Assembly: GCF_009908285.1 (NCBI RefSeq)
Contig: NZ_JAAARM010000001.1
Span: forward strand, 248,001 to 312,000
Source: Pseudomonas sp. Fl4BN1
GTDB taxonomy: Bacteria > Pseudomonadota > Gammaproteobacteria > Pseudomonadales > Pseudomonadaceae
Direction: 5' to 3'
DNA length: 64,000 bases
Below the pieces are notes generated by a model, which saw nothing but the letters and a program-made list of their open reading frames with translations, searched no databases and was not told the DNA's origin. Below, one piece after another: positions 21,343 through 22,231 of this stretch (position 1 is the stretch's first letter; each line of letters begins with the position of its first letter). A program made the translations under genes and the position numbers.

Positions 21343-21781
21343 GCACGGCTCCGAAGAGAAAGACAGGCTGCATTCTACGCCTGAAGAGTACTCGCGACCG
21401 AAGCTAATGCTGCGGGTGTTCGGCTCCCTGGCGATTGTCGGGGTGATGGTGGGGCTGATGATCGGTCGCCTGACCCAGTCCGATCCTGTGGAGCTGCAGC
21501 AGGTCGAAATCGCACCTGACGGGCTGGTGGTTTGGTTCAACCAGGAACCCAAGGTTCACGGTGAGCACATCGACGGTACCGTGGCGCTGCTGTTCGATGC
21601 CCAGGGACATGCGCAGCACGGCCAATTGCAGGTCAACCAGAGGAATGTGAACTGGCGTGTCCGCCTGGCGGACCAGGGCTTGCTGCTGAACCTGGTGGCC
21701 GCCCGCGCGCTGCGCGGTGAATGGCGCGGAGGCGAGGTCGACGGGCGCTGGCGCCTGGAGATCCACCTGCGGGAGGAATAA
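21341..21781 (+). CDS. Conserved hypothetical single-pass membrane protein
   Basis: I do not recognise a named family. The 146-residue protein has a short polar N-terminus, one transmembrane helix (about residues 24-43, LRVFGSLAIVGVMVGLMIG) and a C-terminal beta-rich domain of about 95 residues with WFNQEPKVHGEH and NWRVRLADQGLLLNL. A periplasmic domain tethered to the inner membrane is likely. The ATG at 21341 overlaps the trmL start on the other strand by two bases, so an internal ATG at residue 23 (21407) is an alternative. Its stop codon runs into the first unit of the tandem array. Confidence 0.7.
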   Translation: MHGSEEKDRLHSTPEEYSRPKLMLRVFGSLAIVGVMVGLMIGRLTQSDPVELQQVEIAPDGLVVWFNQEPKVHGEHIDGTVALLFDAQGHAQHGQLQVNQRNVNWRVRLADQGLLLNLVAARALRGEWRGGEVDGRWRLEIHLREE

Positions 21782-22231
21782 AAGAGGGAAACCCCGGCCT
21801 GCCTGTACCAAGGCCCCCAAAAGCGGGAGGGGCCAATTGCCTCAGGGGCAATCAGTCCCGGTGTAAAGAGGGGAATTCCCGGCCTGCCTGTACCAGGGTC
21901 CCCGAAAGCGTGGCCCAGCGCGATGCGCGTGATGGGCCGGGTATTAAAGAGGGAAGCCCCAGCCTGCCTGTACTGAGGTTCCCGAAACCTTGGGCCCGTC
22001 GCGATGCGCGTGATGGGCCGGGTGTTAAAGAGGGAATTCCCGGCCTGCCTGTACCAGGGTTCCCGAAAACATGGCCGGTCACGGTGTGCGTGAAGGGCCG
22101 GCTATTAAAGAGGGAAGTCCCAGCCTGCCTGTACTGGGGTTCCCGAAACCTTGGGCTCGTCGCCATGCGTGCCGAGCTCGGTGTTAAAGAGGGGAATCCC
22201 CGGCCTGCCTGTACCAAGGTCCCCGAAACTG
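21781..22231. repeat. Tandem array of six imperfect ~80-bp hairpin units
   Basis: Units begin with AAAGAGGG at 21781, 21865, 21946, 22027, 22107 and 22186, with periods of 84, 81, 81, 80 and 79 bp; the last is cut after about 45 bp. Each has a core containing GCCTGCCTGTAC with arms that pair (GGGAA with TTCCC, or GGGGA with TCCCC), followed by a GC-rich half often containing CGATGCGCGTGATGGGCC. Units 3 and 5 share the variant AGCCTGCCTGTACTG, while 2, 4 and 6 share GGCCTGCCTGTACC, suggesting duplication as a dimer of about 160 bp. No repeat/spacer structure of a CRISPR and no coding signal was seen. Confidence 0.85.

Follow-up and report, generated by a model that had tools for sequence, protein, structure and literature searches.

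An expanded, six-module member of the NrsZ small RNA family downstream of ntrC in Pseudomonas sp. Fl4BN1

The window analysed here, a stretch of 64,000 nucleotides from Pseudomonas sp. Fl4BN1 to which all positions refer, encodes the nitrogen regulators NR(II) and NR(I) on its minus strand: ntrB at 23966..25327 (NF008293, 395.5 bits against a cut-off of 240; its true start is uncertain) and ntrC at 22533..23969 (TIGR01818, 795.4 bits, cut-off 558.6). The spacer just downstream of ntrC holds, on the same strand, six head-to-tail units at 21775-22229, spaced 80, 80, 81, 80, and 85 bp apart, in agreement with the tandem array that a preliminary description of this DNA had placed at 21781-22231. 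The units had also been said to run from the stop codon of an upstream gene. A 146-aa ORF of no known family (21341..21781, plus strand) indeed ends at the array start, with its stop codon inside the T-rich tail of module 6; this gene, however, is convergent and lies downstream of the RNA. A perfect NtrC-type palindrome, TGCACTATATTGGTGCA, is found at 25282-25298 near the 5' end of ntrB and is probably the ntrB autoregulatory promoter. At 22430-22525, after ntrC and before the nrsZ promoter region, there is an inverted pair of GTAGGAGC..GGCTTGCC-type sequences, which we take to be REP elements, and a single similar sequence lies near 20853-20880.

The array had been presented as unexplained. 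It is not: on the other strand it reads as NrsZ, an sRNA that is already known. The Rfam model RF02695 covers 21769..22235 on the minus strand with two full-length matches, at 22015-22235 (192.5 bits) and 21769-21995 (159.2 bits), both well above the gathering score of 76.9 bits. Six units give two full-length matches because the family consensus holds three ACAGGCAG hairpins, and the array is an unusually long, expanded member of this known sRNA family. All six modules carry ACAGGCAG, and the loop that the preliminary description had rightly singled out as the most conserved part is the complement of this known NrsZ motif, whose apical presentation is confined to the minus strand. Numbered from the 5' end of the RNA, which reverses the earlier numbering of the units (module 1 being unit 6), the minus-strand modules lie at 22181..22229 (module 1, 72.9 bits with our module model R1), 22101..22149 (module 2, unit 5, 61.6 bits), 22021..22069 (module 3, unit 4, 68.9 bits), 21940..21988 (module 4, unit 3, 64.0 bits), 21860..21908 (module 5, unit 2, 71.8 bits), and 21775..21823 (module 6, unit 1, 68.3 bits), the last and 3'-most of which likely doubles as a terminator. 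A search of the strain's whole genome with R1 returned these six modules, all in this array, and no seventh, the next match having an E-value of 0.03.

A sigma54 (RpoN) -24/-12 promoter-like site, TGGCACGCCACCTGCA, is located upstream of module 1 at 22249..22264 on the minus strand. Alone the sequence match is weak, as the window contains two such sites against 0.82 expected and 20 of 100 shuffles reach two. Of 48 loci fetched by the RNA model or with the window DNA, 47 have a sigma54-like site 49-67 nt ahead of their first loop motif, and the remaining one (L017) has a one-base variant of it. From the geometry of sigma54 promoters, transcription is predicted to start some 12 nt beyond the -12 element, at 22237..22239 on the minus strand. 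Weak NtrC-like half-palindromic sites are found at 22422-22406 and at 22403-22387 (together 22387..22422, minus strand), both matching at 8/12 positions, a score often reached by shuffled sequence. Of 116 related loci, 103 have an upstream NtrC-like palindrome scoring at least 9/12 (14% in shuffles), its commonest distance being about 153-160 nt, and the window's weak sites share that position. A hairpin scan placed a terminator-like hairpin at 22306..22328 (minus strand), which separates ntrC from the nrsZ promoter and thus suggests that nrsZ is its own transcription unit. Module 6 contributes a terminator-like hairpin with a T-rich tail at 21818-21787; in the 1.3-kb region two such hairpins were found, versus 1.3 expected in shuffles.

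The surroundings of the gene were compared through a pattern scan of named genomes, which yielded at least 80 loci. Of these, 75 were counted, and five with no model match (from Actinospica, Acidobacteria, Prolixibacteraceae, Pseudoduganella, and one further bacterium) were left out. Among the matches listed, a U-rich tail follows the array in 72 of the 75 loci, and in 55 a homologue of the 146-aa ORF stops 29-33 nt beyond the final loop motif; in 8 the homologue is placed elsewhere, and 12 gave no match. Also among the matches listed, ntrC lies within 1.2 kb of NrsZ in 47 of the 75 and elsewhere in 2; 10 loci have too little flanking sequence to tell, and no ntrC was found upstream of NrsZ in 16 that have at least 1.5 kb of sequence. 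Loci lacking an upstream ntrC (L138, L144, L147, L153-L160, and others among L107-L186) have a different neighbourhood.

Each module folds into a hairpin with a 5-bp outer stem, a 6-bp inner stem, and the 8-nt loop ACAGGCAG. When 113 distinct modules were trimmed to 49 nt, the closed ACAGGCAG loop was formed by all 113 as minus-strand and by none as plus-strand sequence, and the inner-stem energy was lower on the minus than on the plus strand in every one; the invariance of the loop in this set is partly by construction, because the modules were collected with the motif TACAGGC[AG]G. The inner stems on the minus strand (6 pairs in 113 modules) make up 678 cells, of which 261 hold G.U, three A.G, and none A.C, and each G.U pair would become an A.C mismatch if the plus strand folded. 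Folding that is predicted for the minus strand alone speaks for an RNA from that strand rather than for a DNA cruciform. We rejected the cruciform on the G.U asymmetry together with the strand-specific folding of the modules, and a plus-strand reading on the same asymmetry together with the failure of all 113 modules to form the loop there. Thermodynamic z-scores were of no help in deciding, the energies being close to those of shuffled sequence: at full length z was -1.0 on the minus and -1.3 on the plus strand, the plus-strand energy being even lower, and with short flanks four of the six window modules formed the loop (z from -1.7 to +0.8).

The preliminary description had reported matched changes in the two arms of five units, and these are indeed present: GGGGA pairs with TCCCC in two units and GGGAA with TTCCC in three, while the arms of the sixth (module 6) still pair with one G.U or more. 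A second co-varying pair, absent from that description, lies in the inner stem (G-C versus A-U, RNA modules 2 and 4). Within the window alone the pattern is suggestive only, with 48 of 720 arm permutations doing as well for the outer and the inner stem each. In 46 distinct arrays with 175 modules, pairing of each module's own arms beats within-array shuffles (z 8.7 for the outer and 7.1 for the inner stem; 0/5000), and it still does so when the set is reduced to 15 or to 10 dissimilar arrays (0/5000 each). Sliding the inner stem by one or two bases gave no pairing gain over within-array shuffles. In a set of 53 modules, 94.7% of the cells pair, and 5 of the 11 pairs change on both sides versus 1.8 in shuffles. 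The arms co-vary, and we therefore conclude that selection acts on a folded RNA; of the two options offered earlier, a folded RNA or a cruciform, the former largely stands and the latter is disfavoured.

The covariation that had been anticipated across related genomes was thus found against within-array shuffles, but a tree-aware null leaves one weak pair. In that test, written in Python and run on 113 modules with 40 simulations, pair 16-27 scores highest of all column pairs (p 0.0012, E 1.2 over all; 0.013 when p is multiplied by the 11 proposed pairs), the median of the simulated maxima exceeds its score, and the remaining proposed pairs are not significant. We kept the within-array shuffle test as the main evidence and counted the tree-aware result against it. 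The strand assignment is clearer than the covariation statistics.

NrsZ is widespread in the genus. Of 249 genomes of the genus, taken as Pseudomonas from its named neighbours, 244 gave a match to RF02695, 169 of them above the cut-off; none of 14 control genomes did, whereas 71 of 119 genomes of the family sample matched, representing 13 of 19 genera. Four genomes of the order sample outside the family also gave matches (E 5e-7 to 8e-4), which we take as chance because the motif ACAGGC[AG]G is missing from all four loci. A search of Pseudomonas genomes with a module model, as the preliminary description had proposed, covered 398 genomes. The module number per genome was 0 in 9, 1 in 102, 2 in 70, 3 in 154, 4 in 40, 5 in 15, 6 in 2, 7 in 5, and 8 in 1, a count in which the strict R1 filters may have missed weak modules. 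Three is hence the commonest number, and six or more modules occur in 8 of the 398 genomes, the window included. Pseudomonas sp. QS1027 and MWU13-2105, both named relatives, carry eight modules each. The literature passages on NrsZ available to us make no mention of module number varying between species, and we claim no priority for this observation.

A kinship comparison of 78 units from 13 arrays bears on how the array grew. Module 6 is identical to the last module of the five-module array of Pseudomonas sp. Au-Pse12, module 1 is nearest to the first modules of other arrays (closest 92%), and module 5 is nearest to a penultimate module (89%). The remaining modules, 2, 3, and 4, cluster among themselves and with central modules from related arrays. 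Both here and among close relatives the end modules are thus orthologous and the central ones increase in number; in this lineage, therefore, the ends stayed and the middle multiplied. The rule is not clean in every array, since of the 78 units 24 have their nearest neighbour in their own array and 23 have it in another array at the matching end, whereas for the other 31 it is found elsewhere. Expansion as a dimer, suggested earlier from an alternation of two unit types, fits in part: a tandem period of 161 bp gives 86% matches versus 79% for 80 bp, and RNA modules 2 and 4 are 88% identical across the whole unit, whereas the identity among modules 1, 3, and 5 reaches only 72-76%.

NrsZ of P. 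aeruginosa was reportedly described by Wenner et al. in 2014. According to passages of PMC9308961 and PMC8395346, it is induced by NtrB/C with RpoN under nitrogen limitation and yields fragments of about 40 and 140 nt in abundance. The passages of PMC9308961 give a length of 226 nt for the PAO1 RNA and report its first 60 nt as the functional unit, and those of PMC8395346 state that the ACAGGCAG motif activates rhlA post-transcriptionally, acting on the mRNA. We consider it very probable that the minus strand from 22238 to 21778 encodes a six-module NrsZ that is likely sigma54/NtrC-dependent at nitrogen shortage and is predicted to be cut into hairpins whose ACAGGCAG loops would pair with target mRNAs. 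In the proposed course of events, NtrB/C together with RpoN would switch on nrsZ when nitrogen is short, and the predicted transcript of about 460 nt with six seed loops would be processed into short hairpin modules, the CUCUUU linkers being the putative cutting sites. The identical ACAGGCAG loops would then base-pair with target mRNAs, and extra central modules would raise the number of active loops per transcript. From the predicted start, the first 60 nt would span the first hairpin and the CUCUUUAA tail, which agrees with the functional unit reported for PAO1 in the passages of PMC9308961. The strain's genome contains 74 copies of the complement CCTGCCTGT versus 18 of the reversed pattern; we drew nothing on targets from these counts, because six of the copies lie inside the array and the reversed pattern is an unfair control for codon bias.

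Two readings dispense with this RNA. Units that follow head to tail at roughly 80 bp, with folding energies near those of shuffled sequence, would also suit simple satellite-like DNA or a cruciform lacking any RNA function; we give this scarcely any credence, as the family is present across the genus (244/249), the promoter geometry is near-constant (47/48 loci), the stems depend on G.U pairs on one strand only, and the array ends are fixed at the promoter and the convergent stop codon. The array could also belong to the plus strand, as the 3' UTR, terminator, or attenuator of the 146-aa gene, at whose stop codon it starts, or as a coding repeat, given that a 171-aa plus-strand ORF spans it. 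Such an element is highly improbable: no module forms the loop on the plus strand, and all 113 have the lower inner-stem energy on the minus strand. The coding repeat in particular was ruled out, in line with the preliminary description, by module spacings that are not multiples of three in 75 of 133 cases in the fetched arrays, and by the overlapping ORFs (171 aa on the plus, 121 aa on the minus strand), neither of which matched a Pfam family.

The identification as NrsZ could also be right and the number of modules neutral, produced by slippage or unequal recombination, so that one module suffices and six equal three in effect. We regard this as a real possibility, if somewhat short of probable. 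It is consistent with the function reported for the first 60 nt in P. aeruginosa (passages of PMC9308961), with the single module of 102 of 398 genus genomes, and with linkers that diverge more than the cores. The extra modules, however, retain the loop and paired stems rather than decay, although 10 of 191 model matches are low-scoring and the five of them inspected have a changed loop. Our own proposal is more tentative still, and we put it forward as possible but rather doubtful: NrsZ may be an evolvable RNA multiplier, in which one nitrogen-controlled promoter and one terminator hairpin are fixed, central seed modules are gained and lost (0 to 8 per genome by our count), each species tunes the number of sRNAs per transcript, and diverged central modules may gain targets of their own.

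The array resembles P. aeruginosa NrsZ in module sequence and structure, in the ACAGGCAG loop, in the sigma54-like promoter, and in its place downstream of ntrC. Several copies of a short active motif on one RNA are likewise found in CrcZ and RsmY/RsmZ of Pseudomonas, whose motifs bind proteins. Unlike these protein-binding motifs, the NrsZ loop is reported in the passages of PMC8395346 to act on mRNA. The array differs from NrsZ of PAO1 in having six modules and a predicted length of about 460 nt, whereas the family model has three modules and the PAO1 RNA has 226 nt in the passages of PMC9308961. Likened by description and not by sequence, NsiR1 of Nostoc sp. PCC 7120 is a nitrogen-stress RNA of about 60 nt present in 12 tandem copies, which are identical in the middle of the row and diverged on its outer sides; each copy has its own promoter, as the passages of PMC9045159 state, whereas the window array has a single promoter-like site.

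An apparently unexplained repeat is thereby settled, with its strand, as a conserved regulatory RNA gene. The module number of this one sRNA varies widely within one genus while both ends are fixed, and the series of module numbers offers natural material for asking whether bacteria tune sRNA dose per transcript.

Two further observations concern the arrays of other genomes. The 48 loci of the promoter comparison contain 191 modules by the model alone and 181 by the motif, and ten low-scoring matches (26-34 bits) explain the gap in number. These ten module-like hairpins lie at the 3' end of arrays from a second genus of the family (L034-L045 except L035 and L044), and the five inspected (L034, L036, L037, L040, and L043) have the changed loop GGACCAGGC; they are perhaps modules turned into pure terminators. 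All eight genomes with at least six modules (G000, G061, G070, G071, G141, G169, G568, and G627) are at least 6.8 Mb in size, which could reflect one clade or a real trend.
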